From: Rhodoferax aquaticus
GTDB lineage: Bacteria > Pseudomonadota > Gammaproteobacteria > Burkholderiales > Burkholderiaceae_C
Length of the DNA: 64,000 nucleotides
Direction of reading: 5' to 3'
Assembly (NCBI RefSeq): GCF_006974105.1
Contig: NZ_CP036282.1
Location: 1,240,001-1,304,000, forward strand
In this document: positions 23,540 to 55,327 of the stretch, in pieces
How the letters are laid out: every line of letters starts with the position of its first letter
Position numbering within the stretch: the first letter of the stretch is position 1
Translations under genes and position numbers: made by a program
The notes under the pieces: generated by a model
The model's input: only the letters and a program-made list of their open reading frames with translations
Database searches by the model: none
Told to the model about the DNA's origin: nothing

Positions 23540-23962
23540 ATGCTGGTACGTTTGCTCTATGCGAGCCGGGCGATTGATCCCCGGCCAGAAGCCATTGAAG
23601 ATATCTTGGCCAAATCCCGCCTTTCCAACCCGACCTGCGGCATTACGGGCATCTTGTGTTACGGCGGAGGCATCTTCCTCCAAGCTATAGAAGGCGGGCG
23701 CATGGCGGTGAGCGACTTGTATGGCCACATACAGCGCGATCCACGCCACAAAGACGTTTTGCTGCTGCATTACGAGGAGATCTTGGAGCGCCGCTTTGGT
23801 GGATGGACCATGGGCCAAGTCAATATGTCCAAGATCAACACCAGCATCTTGTTGAAGTATTCCGAGAAGCCTGAGTTGGACCCGTACGCTGTATCGGGCC
23901 AAGTGTCTTTGGCCTTGCTCGAAGAGTTGATGGCCACAGCTTCCATTATTGGACGCTCCTAA
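23540..23962 (+). CDS. BLUF-domain blue-light sensor (short, single domain)
   Basis: This is a 140-residue single-domain BLUF protein, which binds FAD and rearranges a Gln-Tyr hydrogen bond on blue-light absorption. The photocycle residues are present: Tyr7 (RLLYASRA), Asn30 (LSNPTCGITG) and Gln48 (IFLQAIEGG), with the Gln-Asn spacing of 18 seen in AppA and PixD. The Trp/Met pair is also there (GGWTMGQ). About 40 residues after the core form the two-helix cap, and there is no output domain, so it must signal through a partner. It starts 4 bp after folE with a good site (cgaaaggg). The link to folE may be only positional. Confidence 0.9.
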   Translation: MLVRLLYASRAIDPRPEAIEDILAKSRLSNPTCGITGILCYGGGIFLQAIEGGRMAVSDLYGHIQRDPRHKDVLLLHYEEILERRFGGWTMGQVNMSKINTSILLKYSEKPELDPYAVSGQVSLALLEELMATASIIGRS

Positions 23963-46538: not shown

Positions 46539-49367
46539 ATGAGTCAGACTACCCCCTCATTTTTGTCCCAGTTGTTCAGTGGTGCCCAGTTGGCGGAGCA
46601 AGCGGCGGCCATCGATGGCTTGCAGCGCAAGCTGGCCCAAAAAGAGGCTGAGCTGGCAACAGCACAAGCCAAAAGCAGCAGCCTAGCGCAGCAGCTGAAA
46701 GCCGCACAAGTCTTGAGCAACGCCTTAGAAGTGGTCACGGGCAACGTGATGATTGCGGACGCTGGCAACAACGTGGTGTTCATGAACAAGTCGGTCAGCG
46801 GCATGCTGTCGACTGCAGAGAGCGACATCCGCAAAGACTTGCCGAACTTCAGCACCGCCACGGTGTTAGGTTCCAATATCGATATCTTTCACAAAAATCC
46901 GGCGCATCAGCGCGACATGCTGGGGCGTTTGCGTGAAACCTACCGCACCCAAATCAACGTAGGTGGCCGCGTGTTTGGCTTGGTCGCCACCCCCATCGTC
47001 GACAAAGAAGGCGTGCGCCAGGGCACGGTGGTGGAGTGGTCGGACCGCACCGCCGAAATTGCAGCGCGCAATGCAGAACTCAAGGCCGCGGCTGAAAACA
47101 CCCGCATCAAAAACGCGCTAGACAAGTGCAGCACCAATGTGATGATTGCGGACGACAGCAACCACATCATCTACATGAATGAAACTGTGGCTGCCATGAT
47201 GCAGGGCAATGAGGCCGAGCTACGCAAGAGCTTGCCTAACTTCAACGCCAAGAAGCTCATCGGCGAGAGCATCGATGTGTTCCACAAGAACCCGGCCCAC
47301 CAGCGCGGCATGTTGTCCGCTCTCAGCAGCACCTACAAGACACAAATCCAGGTGGGCAGCCTGACCTTTGGGCTCATTGCCAACCCCATCATTGACGCCG
47401 AAGGCAAACGGGTGGGCACCGTGGTGGAATGGGCCGACAAAACGGTAGAGCTGGCCGCCCGCGAGGCAGAGCTCAAGCTGGCTGCAGAGAACACGCGCAT
47501 CAAAAACGCGCTCGACAAGTGCAGCACCAACGTGATGATTGCCGACGACAGCAACCACATCATTTACATGAACGAAACCGTGGCTGCCATGATGAAAGGC
47601 AACGAGGCCGAGCTGCGCAAGAGCCTTCCGCAGTTTGACGCGAACAAACTCATTGGTGCCAATATTGATGTGTTCCACAAGAACCCTGCGCACCAGCGCG
47701 GCATGTTGGCCAGCCTGAGCAGCACCTACAAAACGCAAATCCAGGTGGGCAGCCTGTACTTCGGCCTGATTGCCAACCCCATCATTGATGCGGCGGGCAA
47801 GCGTGTTGGTACGGTGGTGGAGTGGGCAGACCGCACTGCTGAGATCAAGGCACGTGATGTGGAACTCAAGCTCATGGCAGAGAACACCCGCATCAAGAAT
47901 GCGCTGGACAAGTGCACCACCAATGTGATGATTGCCGACGCGATGAACCACATCGTCTACATGAACGAAACCGTCACCACCATGATGCAGCGCAATGAGT
48001 CCGAATTGCGCAAGAGCCTGCCGCAGTTTGACTCGCGCAAGCTCATGGGTGAAAACATTGATGTGTTCCACAAAAACCCAGCGCACCAGCGCGGCATGCT
48101 CGCCAGCCTGAGCAGTACCTACAAAACCCAAATCAAAGTGGGCAACTTGTACTTTGGTTTGATAGCTAACCCCATTTTGGATGCCCAAGGCGTGCGCGTG
48201 GGCACGGTGGTGGAGTGGGCTGACCGCACCGCTGAAGTGGGTGTGGAGAATGAGGTGGCCGCCATTGTGGAGGGCGCCACCCACGGAGACTTTGGCAGGC
48301 GGTTGAGCACCGAGGGCAAAACCGGCTTCTTTGCCTCACTCTCCAGCGGTATGAACCAGTTGCTAGACACCAGCGAAAACGGACTCAACGACGTGGCCGA
48401 TGTGTTGGAAGCCTTTGCCCAAGGCGACCTCACCAAACGCATAGAGCGCGACTACGAAGGCCTGTTTGGCAAGGTGAAAGACAGCGCCAACTCCACCGCC
48501 GACAACCTCATGCGTGTCATGGGTGAGGTGCGTGCCGCGGCGGACGCGCTGACCGGCGCTGCCAACCAAGTGAGTTCCACCGCCCAGTCGCTCTCCCAAG
48601 CTGCGTCAGAACAAGCCAGCAGCGTGGAAGAAACCACTGCCAGCATGGATGCTATGTCAGCCTCCATCAACCAAAACAGCGACAACGCCAAGGTCACTGA
48701 CGGCATGGCCACCAAAGCCAGCAAAGAGGCGACCGAGGGCGGCAGTGCGGTGAGCCAAACCGTCACCGCCATGAACCAAATTGCGGCCAAGATCGGTATC
48801 GTGGACGACATCGCCTACCAAACCAACTTGCTGGCGCTGAACGCAGCCATCGAGGCCGCCAGGGCTGGCGAGCACGGCAAGGGTTTTGCCGTGGTGGCCG
48901 CTGAGGTGCGCAAACTGGCCGAACGCAGCCAAGAGGCCGCCAAAGAGATTGGTGACCTGGCCACCAACAGCGTGGCCACCGCGCAGCGGGCCGGTAAGCT
49001 GCTCGACGAAATTGTGCCCAGCATTCAAAAAACCAGCGAGCTGGTGCAAGAGATTGCGGCCGCAAGTTCAGAGCAAAGCGAGTCGGTGGTGCAAATTGGC
49101 GGTGCCATGACGCAATTGTCCAAGGCCACGCAACAAAACGCGTCGGCCTCCGAAGAGTTGGCCGCTACCAGCGAAGAGTTGTCTGGGCAGGCAGAGCAAT
49201 TGCAGCAAAGCATTGCCTTCTTCAATATTGGGGACGACATGCCGGCCAAGGTACGCAGCCGCCACGAACCCGTGGCCCACGACCGCAGGGCCGTTGCCCC
49301 GCGTTTGGGTGCACCTGCCAAAGCACCTACCGCGCGCGGTGCTGGCGGCAACTTCAAACCTTATTGA
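46539..49367 (+). CDS. Soluble methyl-accepting chemotaxis protein with four tandem PAS domains
   Basis: This 942-residue receptor has no membrane helix. A short coiled coil (about 20-65) precedes four PAS domains in exact 131-residue units (start of each NAL block near residues 61, 192, 323 and 454). Each has [15 protein letters not shown] and GTVVEW, the His and Trp pattern of Aer2-type haem PAS domains that bind O2. A HAMP-like region follows (about 570-660), then the signalling domain with the tip [20 protein letters not shown] near 765. The protein ends GGNFKPY. The start at 46539 follows ggag. A BLUF gene begins 27 bp downstream, suggesting joint light and oxygen sensing. Haem binding is inferred, not shown. 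Confidence 0.93.
46719..48259 (+). repeat. Four tandem 393-bp PAS-coding units
   Basis: The codons for the repeated AEN/NAL block begin at 46719, 47112, 47505 and 47898, exactly 393 bp apart. Units 2, 3 and 4 are nearly identical in long stretches at DNA level. Unit 1 is more diverged. This is an internal duplication of one PAS module. Confidence 0.9.
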
Positions 49368-49394
49368 GCGCCGCAGGCGACCAGGAGCTAACCG

Positions 49395-49826
49395 ATGTCC
49401 ATGATCCAAATCATTTACCTGAGCGACCTGGCCAACCACGCGGAGGCCGAGCTAGAGCCCATCCATGCTTCGGCCGTTAAGCACAACAGAGCCAACGGTG
49501 TGACAGGCATGCTGCTCTATACCAAAGGCCGCTTCATGCAGGTGATTGAAGGGCCGGCTGAGGCTGTGCGTGTTACCTATTCGCGTATCGCGCTAGACAA
49601 GCGCCATCACAATATTCAGCTCATGGCGGAAGAGAAGATCACGCAGCGCCACTTCGCCAAGTGGAGCATGGGCATGCGCTTGGTGGGTGACGAAGACTTG
49701 GCCGAGTACCCACAGTACGAGCCTTACTTTAAGTTTGGCTTTGATGTAGCCGCCATTCGCGCCCGCCCTGGCATGGCTCTGGCCATGCTGCAGGCCTTTG
49801 GCCGCAGTGCCCTAGACTCTGCGTAG
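49395..49826 (+). CDS. BLUF-domain blue-light sensor, downstream of MCP
   Basis: This 143-residue BLUF protein starts MSMIQIIYLSDLANHAEAELE. The photocycle residues are intact: Tyr8 (QIIYLSD), Asn31 (KHNRANGVTG) and Gln49 (RFMQVIEGP), plus the Trp/Met pair in KWSMGMRLV near residue 94. The C-terminal helices (about 115-143) form the cap, and there is no effector domain. It lies 27 bp after the four-PAS MCP and is almost certainly cotranscribed with it. It may therefore feed blue-light information to that receptor or its kinase, which is inference from position. Confidence 0.92.
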   Translation: MSMIQIIYLSDLANHAEAELEPIHASAVKHNRANGVTGMLLYTKGRFMQVIEGPAEAVRVTYSRIALDKRHHNIQLMAEEKITQRHFAKWSMGMRLVGDEDLAEYPQYEPYFKFGFDVAAIRARPGMALAMLQAFGRSALDSA

Positions 49827-50161: not shown

Positions 50162-52735
50162 TCAATAAGGTTTGAAGTTGCCGCCACCGCCGCGCACTGG
50201 GGCCGGGCGCAGGGGGGCGCTCAACAAGGGCGTGGCGCCCCTGCGCTCGCGCACCGGCGCTTCTAGTCGGCCACGCGTAGGCACGGCCTCTTGCCCAATG
50301 TTGAAGAAGGCAATGCTGTCTTGCAACTGGCCAGCTTGGCCTGAGAGCTCTTCACTCGTGGCAGCCAACTCTTCGGAGGCCGACGCATTTTGCTGCGTGG
50401 CCTTGGACAACTGCGTCATGGCGCCGCCAATTTGCACTACCGACTCGCTTTGCTCTGTGCTGGCGGCGGCAATCTCTTGCACCAGCTCGCTGGTCTTTTG
50501 GATGCTAGGCACGATCTCGCCCAGCAGCCTGCCTGCCCGCTCGGCGGTGGCCACGCTGTTGCTGGCCAGGTCGCCAATCTCTTTGGCCGCCTCTTGGCTG
50601 CGCTCGGCCAGCTTACGCACCTCAGCGGCCACCACGGCAAAGCCTTTGCCGTGCTCGCCCGCGCGGGCGGCTTCAATGGCGGCGTTCAGCGCCAGCAAAT
50701 TGGTTTGGTAGGCAATGTCGTCCACGATGCTAATCTTGGCGGCAATCTGTTTCATAGCTTGCACCGTCTCGGTGACTGCGGTGCCACCCTCGGTGGCCTC
50801 TCTGCTGGCCTTGGTGGCCATGCCGTCGGTCACCTTGGCGTTGTCGCTGTTTTGGTTGATAGAGGCTGACATGCTCTCCATGCTGCCCGAGGTTTCTTCC
50901 ACACTGCTGGCCTGCTCAGACGCCGCTTGCGAGAGCGATTGCGCGGTGGCATTCACCTGGTTGGCAGCTCCGGTCAGCGCGTCCGCAGCGGCGCGCACTT
51001 CGCCCATCACCCGTGTCAGGTTCTCGGCCGTGGCGTTGGCGCTGTCTTTCACTTGGCCATACAAGCCTTGGTAGTCGCGCTCGATGCGGGCGGTGAGGTC
51101 TCCCTCCGAGAAGCTTTGCAGCAAGCGGGCGATGTCGCTCAGGCCCACTTGGCTGGTTTCCATCAGCTGGTTCATGCCGGTCGTCAAGCCCGCAAAGAAG
51201 CCGGTTTTCCCCTCGGTGCTCAGGCGCGCGCTGAAGTCGCCAGCGGCTGCAGCTTGCACAACGCCAGCGACTTCGCTCTCCACCGCCACTTCGGCCGTGC
51301 GGTCAAACCACTCCACCACCGTGCCAATGCGCTTGCCGCTCGCGTCGGTGATGGGGTTGGCGCTCAAGCCAAAGGTGAGACGGCCCACCGTGATTTGGGT
51401 ACGGTGCGTGGTGGTGAGGGCGGCCAGCATGTTGCGCTGGTGGGCGGGGTTTTTGTGAAACACATCGATGTTTTGGCCAATGAGGTTGCGCGCGGTGAAC
51501 TGCGGCAATACCTTGCGCAACTCGGCCTCATTGCGCTGCATCATGTCCATGACCGTGTCGTTCATGAAGATGATGGTGTTGCTGGTGTCGGCAATCATCA
51601 CATTGGTGCTGGCTTTGTTCAGGGCTTGCACCACGCGCTGGTTGGCCACTGCCGCATGCGTGGCTTTTTCCATGCTGTCGCGCGCGGCGTTCACTGCGTC
51701 AGTCACTTTGCGTTTTTCGCCGGGCAACTCAGGCATGGCTTCGTCAAACTTGCCTTGCACGTAGTCGCTCACCAAACCAAGCGCTTTGAACTTCACGTCG
51801 ACGTGCGCTTTGACCATCGCATTGGTGCTGGTGGCCAGTTCGCCAAACGCGCCGGGTAATTGGCTGGCGTCGATGTAGTGGCCAATGACACCGGCCTCGT
51901 GCTGCCGCGCCATCTCGCTTTGGGCCTTCTGAAAACCTTGCAGCGTGACTTGCATGTGGCCCATGGCTTGTAACAACTTGCCGCCTTCGTCGGTGGTTTC
52001 CGCCACGATGGGGCGACTCAGGTCCCCGCGCGCCAAGGTGTTAGCGGCTTCAAGGGCAGTGCCTATGGGCCGGGTAATGCTGCGGCTGATCAAGAACCCA
52101 AGCGCCGTAGCCAGTGCCACGGCAATTGCCGCCGTGTAGATCATGGTGGTGCGGCTAGATGCGTAAGCGGTTTGGGCTGCAGCCGTGGCCTCGTCGTTGA
52201 GTCTGGCTTCCAAGTCCGCGAGTTGGCCAAGTTCTAGGCGCCATTCTTTCTGCTTGGGTTCGCCGTTGGCCTGCAGCAGCTTGGCGGCCTCCGCATCCTT
52301 GTTTTGCATGGCCAGCTCAATCACGGGGCCTAAAGCCGCCCGTCCGATGGTTTTTTGCTCCTTGATTTTGTCGAACAGCTTGCGCTCTGCGTCGGTGGTG
52401 CTATCTTCAGCTGCGAACATTTTGCCCAGTGCATCTTCAGCCGCGTCGTAATTGGCCCGCGCCTTTTTTAAGTCTGCTATCAAAGTTTCGCGGTAAACCG
52501 GGTCACTGGACAGAATCAGGTCACGCGCCGCAATATTCACTTGGTTGACCGAGATGCGCATGGTGACCGCATGCGCTAGTTCCGCATTGTTGACTTTGGT
52601 AATGTCTTCCAGGCGCCCCTCAATCTCTGCCATTTTGGAGAGACCAAAAATGACCATGCCGACCAAGGTTGCGACCATCAGGCCAATCAGCAGGGCCAGT
52701 CGCACCGCGATTTTGAGATTGCTGAGAGCTTTCAT
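50162..52735 (-). CDS. Transmembrane methyl-accepting chemotaxis protein with one PAS domain
   Basis: This 857-residue receptor starts at ATG 52735 behind gaggaaac (an ATG 12 bp earlier lacks this spacing). A membrane helix (about 7-30) leads to a four-helix-bundle periplasmic domain (about 35-190). A second helix ([20 protein letters not shown]) and a HAMP domain follow to about 270. A cytoplasmic linker precedes one PAS domain with FHKNPAHQR and [10 protein letters not shown], the same haem-type pattern as in the first MCP. A second HAMP-like region and the signalling domain ([20 protein letters not shown] near 685) end in GGGGNFKPY. The gene follows the third MCP by 48 bp. Confidence 0.93.
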
Positions 52736-52783
52736 AAGTTTCCTCACGTAAATAACTGCAGGCTGGTGATTGATTCTGTGTGC

Positions 52784-55327
52784 TCAATAGGGTTTGAAGT
52801 TGCCGCCGCCCCCACGCACCGCTGTGGGGATGAGGGGAGGCGCAAGGCGGGGGCTACCCGTGCGCCGCTCCGCTTGTCGTTCGCGCTGGGCGTGGCGGTT
52901 ACCTACCAAGGGCGTGTCGCCCCCCAGCTTGAAGTAGGCCACGCTCTGCTGCAGTTGTTCTGCCTGGCCACTGAGCTCTTCACTGGTGGCGGCCAACTCT
53001 TCAGAGGCCGAGGCATTTTGTTGGGTGGCCTTGGTTAGCTGCCCCATGGCCCCGCCAATTTGCACCACCGACTCACTTTGTTCAGCGCTAGCGGCTGCAA
53101 TGTCTTGCACCAGCTCGCTGGTTCTTTGGATGCTGGGCACGATTTCACCCAAGAGCTTGCCTGCGCGCTCGGCGGTGGCCACGCTGTTGCTGGCCAGGTC
53201 GCCAATCTCTTTGGCCGCCTCTTGGCTGCGCTCGGCCAGTTTGCGCACTTCCGCGGCCACCACCGCAAAACCCTTGCCATGCTCACCCGCACGTGCCGCT
53301 TCAATGGCGGCGTTGAGTGCCAGCAAGTTGGTTTGGTAAGCAATGTCGTCCACGATGCCAATCTTGGCGGCTATCTGCTTCATGGCTTGCACGGTGTCGG
53401 TCACGGCTTTGCCGCCTTCGGTGGCTTCTCGGTTGGTTTTGGTGGCCATGCCTTCGGTGACCTTGGCGTTGTCACTGTTTTGGTTGATCGAGGCGGACAT
53501 GCGGTCCATGCTGCTGGATGTTTCTTCGACACTGCTGGCTTGTTCTGAAGCCGCTTGTGAGAGCGATTGCGCCGTGGCACTTACTTGGTTGGCTGCACCG
53601 GTAAGCGCGTCAGCCGCGGCACGCACCTCGCCCATCACCCGTGCCAAGTTCTCGGCTGTGGAGTTGGCGCTGTCTTTCACTTGGCCAAACAGGCCGGCGT
53701 ACTCACGGTCTATGCGTTGGGTGAGGTCACCTTTGGCAAAGGCGTCCAGCAGGTCGGCAATGTCGCCCAAGCCTTGCTCGCTGGTGGCCATGAGCTGGTT
53801 CATACCCCCAAACAGGGCTGCAAAGAAGCCCGTGCGCCCCTCAAGCGCCAGGCGCTGTGAGAAGTCTCCCTGGGCCGCCGCGTTGACCAAGCCAGACACT
53901 TGGTTTTCTGCCGCAATTTCGTCGGTGCGGTCTACCCAGTGGGTCACACGCCCAATATGCGCGCCTGCACCGTCCACAATGGGTTTGGACAGCATGCGCA
54001 GGCTACGGCCTTGCACCAGCACATCGGTGCTGGCATCGGTTTGTAGTGCGGTACTGAGTTTGGCAGCGGTGCTGGTGTCTCTGAACAGGTCGCTGACTGG
54101 GCGGCCATAGCGGCTTTCGTTGGTCTCGCTGGAGTCACTGAGGCGCTGCAATAAGGCATGCGCAGCGGGCGTTCCGTGCACCAGCAGGCCTTGTGCATTC
54201 GACACAGTCACCGCCTCAGGCAGGCTGTCGAGTGCGCTGCGAATGCGCAGGTTGGCGCGCGCTGCAGTGGCCGCGGTTTTGAGTGCCAGCTGCACGGCGT
54301 CAATGGCTTCGCTGATACGCGCCTCTTGCCCGGGCAAACGGTCCATCGGCGTGTCTAACTTGCCTGCGGCGTAGTCACTCACCACCGCAACAATTTTGGC
54401 CTTGGTGGCAATGTGGCCGCTGGCCAGTGCATTGATGGACTCGCCCATAGACTGGTAAGAGCCCGCCAGCCCGTCCAGCGGCATGCGGTAGTCCACCATG
54501 CCTTGGCTGTGGTTGCGGCCGGTTTCTATTTGCGCCGCCTCAAAGGCGCGCAGCGTGGTTTGCATGCGCTGTAGCGCTTGCATGAGTTGGCCCGCTTCGT
54601 CAGCACCGCTGGCCGCAATGTCACGCGTGAGGTCGCCCACCGCCACCGCATTGGCCACGTCGAGCGCCCGGGCCAAAGGCCGTGTGATGCTGCGTATCAG
54701 GTAGAGCCCAAAACCGATACAAAAGAGCGTTGCGGCAAGCACTGCTGCAATGGTCATGTTGCGCGCGGTTTGCGCCTTGGCAAACGAGGCGTCAAAGTTG
54801 GCTTGTGACTCTTTGATGTTGATAACTTTGAGCGCACGCAGCACCGGGGCCACTTGGTCCCACAGGGTGCCCATGTTTTCTGAGGCCAGAGCCGCGCGGG
54901 CGGGGCTCTTGTCTTGCAGGGCTTGTATGACGGGCTTGAGCCCTTGGTCTACAAACGCGGTGCGCTTGGCAAAGTATTCGTCTGCTAGCTTGTTGGCCTC
55001 TTCGCTGTGGGGTATGGCCTTGTAAGCTTTCCAAGTTTCGGTGATGCGCTGGATGTTGCTGCCGACTTGCTTGAGCGACTTTTCTACGTTGTCGGGTGAG
55101 GGGTTGCTAATGCCGCGCAGCAGCAAGAGCTGGTTTTCTTCCATCAGGGCTTCTATGGTGCCCAGCTGCTCCGTGGGTACCAAATGCTCTTGGTGTGTTT
55201 TTCGCAGTGCTTCGTTGGCTTGCCCCAGCGTGCTAATACCGAAGACCCCCAGTAAAACTAGGGCGGTCACCAAGACCCCCAGCAAGATGCTGAGTTTGGT
55301 GCCAATTTTGAGGTCATTGAGGTTCAT
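52784..55327 (-). CDS. Transmembrane methyl-accepting chemotaxis protein with degenerate PAS domain
   Basis: This 847-residue receptor starts [20 protein letters not shown]. It has a first membrane helix (about 12-32), a four-helix-bundle ligand domain (about 38-185), a second helix ([21 protein letters not shown] near 190) and a HAMP domain to about 270. The PAS region (about 370-480) aligns with the other two receptors ([26 protein letters not shown]) but lacks the FHKNPAHQR segment, so the proposed haem ligand is gone. HAMP and signalling domains (tip near residue 670) and the GGGGNFKPY tail are almost the same as in the second MCP. It leads a two-MCP operon. Confidence 0.92.

Follow-up and report, generated by a model that had tools for sequence, protein, structure and literature searches.

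The chemoreceptor gene at 46539..49367 (plus strand) of the Rhodoferax aquaticus DNA analysed here encodes a soluble protein of 942 residues with four tandem PAS units of the Aer2 type, and it is followed on the same strand by a gene for a short BLUF protein of 143 residues (49395..49826). The whole stretch analysed, called the window below, is 64,000 nucleotides long and corresponds to C1:1240001-1304000 of a 4.74-Mb genome in one contig. We give a probability of about one in two to the reading that this receptor, with its four haem-PAS units, and the co-transcribed BLUF protein are the oxygen and blue-light inputs of a Che2-like pathway. The case adds a fourth PAS to the known Aer2 family and an intact BLUF gene, in a pair that seems confined to this genome. 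It also brings out a recurrent partnership between BLUF genes and Che2-type operons of which we found no description.

Architecture of the receptor

The receptor was delineated from its open reading frame, its domain matches and its hydropathy. The N-terminal 54 residues (46539..46700), which look coiled-coil-like by eye, contain no membrane helix, and the highest 19-residue Kyte-Doolittle mean in the whole protein is 1.21, compared with 2.57 and 2.66 in two neighbouring receptors. Four PAS units follow, all on the plus strand and placed by PDB-chain search and motif positions: PAS1 (residues 55-185, 46701..47093), PAS2 (residues 186-316, 47094..47486), PAS3 (residues 317-447, 47487..47879) and PAS4 (residues 448-578, 47880..48272). 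Each carries the motif FHKNPAHQR, with its first histidine at position 118, 249, 380 or 511, and the motif GTVVEW, with its tryptophan at position 167, 298, 429 or 560, and the repeats keep an exact 393-bp register. The initial annotation, made from the letters alone, had described just such a receptor, without a membrane helix and with both motifs in each of four PAS domains.

PAS4 extends into the first HAMP domain of a di-HAMP unit (48255..48518, plus strand), which aligns with the post-PAS part of Aer2 (3vol). The MCP signalling hairpin (48705..49181) and a C-terminal pentapeptide, NFKPY (49350..49364), complete the protein, both again on the plus strand. Relative to Tsr the hairpin has two 7-residue gaps, from which we take it to be of the 34H class. 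The domain order of an Aer2 receptor, PAS, then di-HAMP, then MCP signalling domain, is present here.

The four PAS units are not equally related. PAS2 and PAS3 are 87% identical, and PAS1 shares 53-54% identity with the other three. Between PAS2 and PAS3 there are 17 residue differences and 40 silent codon differences, implying that the duplication is not recent and that selection on the protein seems to maintain the copies.

Identity of the PAS domains

When all PDB chains were searched with phmmer, the P. aeruginosa Aer2 structures 3vol and 4hi4 were the top PAS matches of the whole receptor. The single units gave the same answer against all PDB chains, with Aer2 (4hi4/3vol) the best match of every one (5e-35 for PAS1, 3e-34 for PAS2, 5e-38 for PAS3 and 3e-36 for PAS4). 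The haem histidine and the last-strand tryptophan are kept in all four copies; at the level of sequence, the likeness to the Aer2 haem-PAS proposed in the initial annotation is thus borne out. In PAS4, His511 and Trp560 align with positions 83 and 132 of 3vol, which a single offset of 151 converts to 234 and 283. We take Trp283 to be the Aer2 tryptophan that is matched by the GTVVEW tryptophan of PAS4. The available text of PMC13401364 gives H234 as the haem ligand of P. aeruginosa Aer2, and according to that of PMC10468136 the same histidine is the primary determinant of haem binding among PAS domains of the Aer2 cluster. As Aer2-type domains, all four units of the window receptor would be expected to bind b-type haem and O2.

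Against the NCBIfam Aer2 model the receptor scores 650 bits, under the equivalog cut-off of 1200. This model describes the Vibrio orthologue, and the score therefore argues against orthology with that protein, not against membership of the Aer2 family.

Comparison with P. aeruginosa Aer2/McpB (3vol, 4hi4) shows both proteins to be soluble, with a PAS containing the haem histidine and the last-strand tryptophan, a di-HAMP after the PAS, a C-terminal pentapeptide and Che2-type partners. They differ in that Aer2/McpB has one PAS and three N-terminal HAMP domains, whereas the window receptor has four PAS and no N-terminal HAMP that we could find, and in the pentapeptide itself, which is GWEEF in Aer2/McpB and NFKPY here. 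According to the available text of PMC13401364, Aer2 has one PAS in P. aeruginosa, two in V. cholerae and three in V. vulnificus and L. interrogans, and haem is bound by all three PAS of the V. vulnificus protein. The two Vibrio proteins are thus also tandem haem-PAS receptors, with fewer units and with no BLUF partner mentioned in the text available; the Leptospira interrogans protein, of the same family, is membrane-bound, to go by a title cited in PMC13401364.

Since published Aer2 receptors have between one and three PAS domains, a fourth is an increment, one more of a known kind. Among 53 distinct receptors of the same class, some of them cut by contig ends, a counting profile built from the window receptor's own PAS found no PAS in 6, one in 39, two in 6, three in 1 and four in 1. 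The four-PAS receptor is that of the window, and the three-PAS receptor sits in the second che cluster of the same genome. The four-PAS receptor offers a natural test of what additional haem-PAS copies do.

The BLUF gene

The product of the downstream gene matches the BLUF family (PF04940, E 7e-30), retains Tyr8, Asn31, Gln49, Trp90 and Met92, and has PixD (Slr1694, 2hfn) as its best PDB match. By family match and key residues it is a BLUF photoreceptor, for which flavin binding and a light response are predicted. Synechocystis PixD is likewise a short BLUF protein; it acts with PixE (PMC5812497, in the text available). It differs from the window protein in that its partner is a response regulator, in type IV pili motility, with no Aer2 receptor.

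The BLUF gene starts 27 bp after the receptor gene, on the same strand, with AGGAG ahead of its start. A simple consensus scan of the gap detected no plus-strand terminator-like or promoter-like site; none was detected before the receptor gene either. Gene spacing makes it likely that the two genes share one transcript. The initial annotation had given the same 27-bp distance and the same intact Tyr, Asn and Gln, and had called the pair 'fused by operon'; that wording is too strong, since the genes are separate and their co-transcription is a likelihood drawn from spacing.

Conservation of the gene pair

The exact receptor-BLUF pair looks private to this genome. Within the genus, a BLUF match (E up to 1e-15) occurs in 36 of 103 genomes, this one included, at 42 places besides that in the window. 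We examined 31 of the 42 (29 loci with flanks up to 1.5 kb, with longer stretches for 14 of the 29, and two fetched by place), and at none of them does an Aer2-type receptor lie beside the BLUF gene; a single one adjoins an MCP gene, which belongs to another class and meets it tail to tail. The initial annotation would have counted a lack of BLUF-MCP adjacency in related genomes against its reading, and for the exact pair that adjacency is absent at these 31 places. The five receptors most similar to the window receptor in its N-terminal part, one of them cut at a contig start, have two PAS motifs each, and no BLUF gene was seen in the stretches fetched around them. At 29 further nadA loci in the genus (flanks up to 1.5 kb) neither an Aer2-type receptor nor a BLUF gene was found, and six of these loci contain an MCP gene of another class. 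The genes after nadA vary among relatives, which marks a variable spot. Across a class-wide sample of 369 genomes, none of the 22 places with an Aer2-type receptor outside this genome (E up to 1e-110, flanks up to 1.5 kb) has a BLUF gene.

The order as a whole yielded 137 BLUF places outside this genome. Judged by gene content, this order is probably Burkholderiales, and the family is probably Comamonadaceae. Surroundings were fetched for 80, and two of these, both in one genus, had an MCP gene in the stretch, a frequency that we judged, with no computed expectation, to be near chance. We nevertheless rejected the view, drawn from these 80 places, that BLUF-MCP proximity is mere chance: the sample had missed four of the six cheB-linked BLUF genes, which were found by a search with cheB.

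A scan of genome contigs with the window BLUF returned seven relatives, at 36-42% identity, five of which were used in a BLUF alignment, and an MCP scan that covered their loci found no MCP there; a plasmid search gave no BLUF at an identity of at least 60%. Three near BLUF relatives in the genus (G391, G358 and G342; 46, 46 and 39% identity) lie in the arrangement photolyase-algH-ruvX-BLUF, in which the photolyase gene is divergent and a pyrC-like gene comes further along (loci L124, L125 and L128; gene families assigned by Pfam in one genome and by similarity in the others).

BLUF genes in Che2-type operons

In other lineages BLUF genes recur next to che genes of the Che2 type. In one genus, with genes named partly by eye, a response regulator comes first, a larger protein occupies the position of X, and cheY, STAS-like, cheA, MCP, cheW, cheB and BLUF follow. 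The CheB encoded there shares 53% identity with the second CheB of the present genome, and the receptor signalling domain 72-73% with that of the window receptor; BLUF is present in three of the 11 genomes of that genus and follows cheB in all three. When 399 genomes of the order were searched with the second CheB, 29 loci from genomes other than this one were scanned, and in 5 of them BLUF followed cheB. Among the matches listed, BLUF lies directly after cheB, on the same strand and with at most 170 bp between the matched parts, at 6 of 49 Che2-type cheB genes compared with 0 of 50 others, a comparison that sets cheB rows from genomes up to G640 (G091 and G042 included, later ones left out) against the 137 order-wide BLUF places, assumes that BLUF-free genomes were present in the BLUF survey, and uses a border of 350 bits between the two kinds of cheB that was set after the list had been seen.

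A BLUF gene directly after the cheB of a Che2-type operon is found in nine genomes, from five families and five genera. Four of these (G426, G649, G677 and G631) have the order cheY-cheA-MCP(Aer2-type PAS)-cheW-cheR-cheD-cheB-BLUF, except that G631 lacks a cheD match; in all four, both the histidine and the tryptophan are present in the PAS of the operon receptor. For the other five, the receptor is without such a PAS (G456, G633), is cut or beyond the contig end (G399, G641), or lies outside the cluster (G558). An Aer2-type PAS is present in seven of 24 clusters mapped, a set partly chosen for BLUF, and four of these seven include a BLUF gene; the three that do not are that of the present genome, L173 and L363. 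This recurrence of cheB-BLUF operons, some with Aer2-type PAS receptors, supports a light and oxygen pathway in general. Genus g170 includes some Che2-type operons with BLUF after cheB and some without (L353, L363).

An association between BLUF and che genes as such is already known: the available text on Spongiibacter nanhainus (PMC8805636) places the BLUF gene I6N98_15960 directly ahead of a chemotaxis gene cluster and reports that blue light raises the level of the cluster's products. In that case the BLUF gene stands before the che genes, motA/motB accompany them, and no haem-PAS receptor is named in that text. A literature search on BLUF with Aer2, chemotaxis and CheB gave neither the receptor-BLUF pair nor a cheB-BLUF operon among the matches listed, with subscription texts, the main Aer2 papers included, mostly outside its reach; the accessible parts of PMC8508746 and PMC2890560 make no mention of cheB-BLUF operons. 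The initial annotation had held the combination to be undescribed. This was too broad, given multi-PAS Aer2 proteins (PMC13401364) and a BLUF gene beside a chemotaxis cluster (PMC8805636), but for the pair itself no report was found in the texts accessible to us.

Descent of the BLUF genes

AU tests were applied to 63 of 131 BLUF rows. The proteins are short, the tree was quickly made and has several long branches, and the groups were named once an earlier tree had been seen. On that footing, the tests reject a single clade that unites the cheB-linked BLUF proteins with the window BLUF (p 0.002). This suggests, short of proof, that this pathway class has acquired BLUF on at least two occasions. 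One origin for all cheB-linked BLUF proteins is not rejected (p 0.088), and neither is one clade of those from families f13, f30 and f40 (p 0.38). Independent uptake of every cheB-linked BLUF, which we also considered, is unsupported. The window BLUF groups with the three BLUF proteins of the ruvX loci, with weak support (77).

Probable assignment to the second che pathway

Beyond the BLUF gene the window encodes two membrane receptors on the minus strand, one of the Aer2 type with a single PAS (50162..52747) and one with a degenerate PAS and an NFKPY tail (52784..55327). The PAS of the latter has no haem histidine and retains the last-strand tryptophan.

The genome has 34 MCP matches and 10 CheW-domain matches. 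Its second che cluster, at C1:431-445 kb, has the order X-cheY-STAS-cheA-MCP(1 PAS)-cheW-MCP(3 PAS)-cheV-cheR-cheD-cheB, in which X, cheY and STAS were named by eye and cheV from CheW plus receiver matches, several of the other names resting on scores below equivalog cut-offs. No BLUF gene is found in this cluster. Receptors of the Aer2-like class number six, two in the second che cluster, three in the window and one at C1:4.24 Mb, and every one of them has NFKPY or NFKLY as its C-terminus. Among 28 receptors whose tails were read, four of these six included, ten end in WETF and 14 have neither motif. Two types of C-terminal pentapeptide thus coexist in the genome, NFKPY/NFKLY in the six Aer2-like receptors and WETF in ten further ones, which suggests two separate CheR/CheB docking codes.

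P. aeruginosa has four CheR and four CheB proteins, and the available text of PMC7698151 reports that the Aer2 pentapeptide is bound only by CheR2 and CheB2 of the Che2 pathway. Taken with the receptor class and the NFKPY/NFKLY tails, this points to the NFKPY tail as a mark of second-pathway receptors, and by class and tail the window receptor most likely feeds the second che system of its genome. A role in flagellar taxis is therefore not to be assumed.

Proposed mechanism and alternatives

The mechanism that we propose has the domains, residues, gene order and recurrence of BLUF elsewhere as its observed basis. In each PAS a b-type haem would be held by the FHKNP histidine, and O2 would bind with the help of the GTVVEW tryptophan. 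The state of PAS4 would pass through the di-HAMP to the signalling hairpin, in line as published for Aer2, with PAS1-3 most likely tuning the output of PAS4. The receptor would work in the second, Che2-like pathway, whose CheR/CheB would dock on its NFKPY tail. The BLUF protein, from the same transcript, would be the blue-light input of that pathway and in the light would bind or release an array component, the candidates being the receptor, CheB and CheY. Weighing against this mechanism are the apparent confinement of the pair to this genome at the places examined, the ruvX loci of the three near BLUF relatives, the lack of a BLUF gene in this genome's second che cluster and in the clusters L173 and L363, and the low number of MCP genes near the order-wide BLUF places. 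A broader form of this proposal, to which we give a little less than an even chance, is that the Aer2-type haem-PAS pathway class repeatedly gains BLUF as a second input, blue light and oxygen then being read jointly by a single CheA, the four-PAS receptor and its BLUF forming a satellite outside the main che cluster. Should BLUF prove a regular partner of the Che2/Aer2 pathway class, the pathway may answer light and oxygen together, that is, photo-oxidative risk; in P. aeruginosa this pathway has no settled function, by the available text of PMC7698151.

It is quite conceivable, if not what we would wager on, that in this lineage the BLUF gene merely landed behind the receptor gene and has its role in a different light response, as may hold for its relatives beside a photolyase gene, leaving the receptor an ordinary oxygen receptor. 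The lack of any such pair at the genus places examined, the variable spot after nadA, and the three near BLUF relatives at phr-algH-ruvX-BLUF, which group weakly with the window BLUF, would all sit well with such an insertion, which accounts less readily for a co-directional gap of 27 bp with no terminator-like site and for the BLUF genes that recur in che operons of this class in other genomes. The cytoplasmic oxygen and blue-light taxis module of the initial annotation fares differently in its two parts: the cheB-BLUF operons lend support to a general light and oxygen pathway, but taxis is unsupported, the receptor apparently belonging to the second che system. That the module steers flagella we regard as unlikely, even though E. 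coli cells that express P. aeruginosa Aer2 respond to O2 by tumbling (available text of PMC13401364). Both the tail and the class of the receptor speak for the second che cluster, and PMC7698151, in the text available, calls the Che2 pathway of P. aeruginosa one of unknown function.

Very unlikely, in our view, is that the PAS units resemble Aer2 in sequence and yet are haem-free, or that some copies are haem-less spacers. The clearly degenerate PAS of the neighbouring receptor provides a precedent for such loss, but all four copies of the window receptor keep histidine and tryptophan, the excess of silent over residue differences between PAS2 and PAS3 points to selection on the protein, and the three PAS of V. 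vulnificus Aer2 all bind haem (available text of PMC13401364).

Other BLUF genes of the genome

There are four BLUF matches in the genome. One further BLUF gene lies inside the window itself, at 23540-23959, and its product is 33% identical to that of the gene behind the receptor over 115 residues. The third (L048:9151-9693) overlaps a response-regulator-like gene, with genes for a large protein and an MCP nearby on the same strand, as judged by eye.
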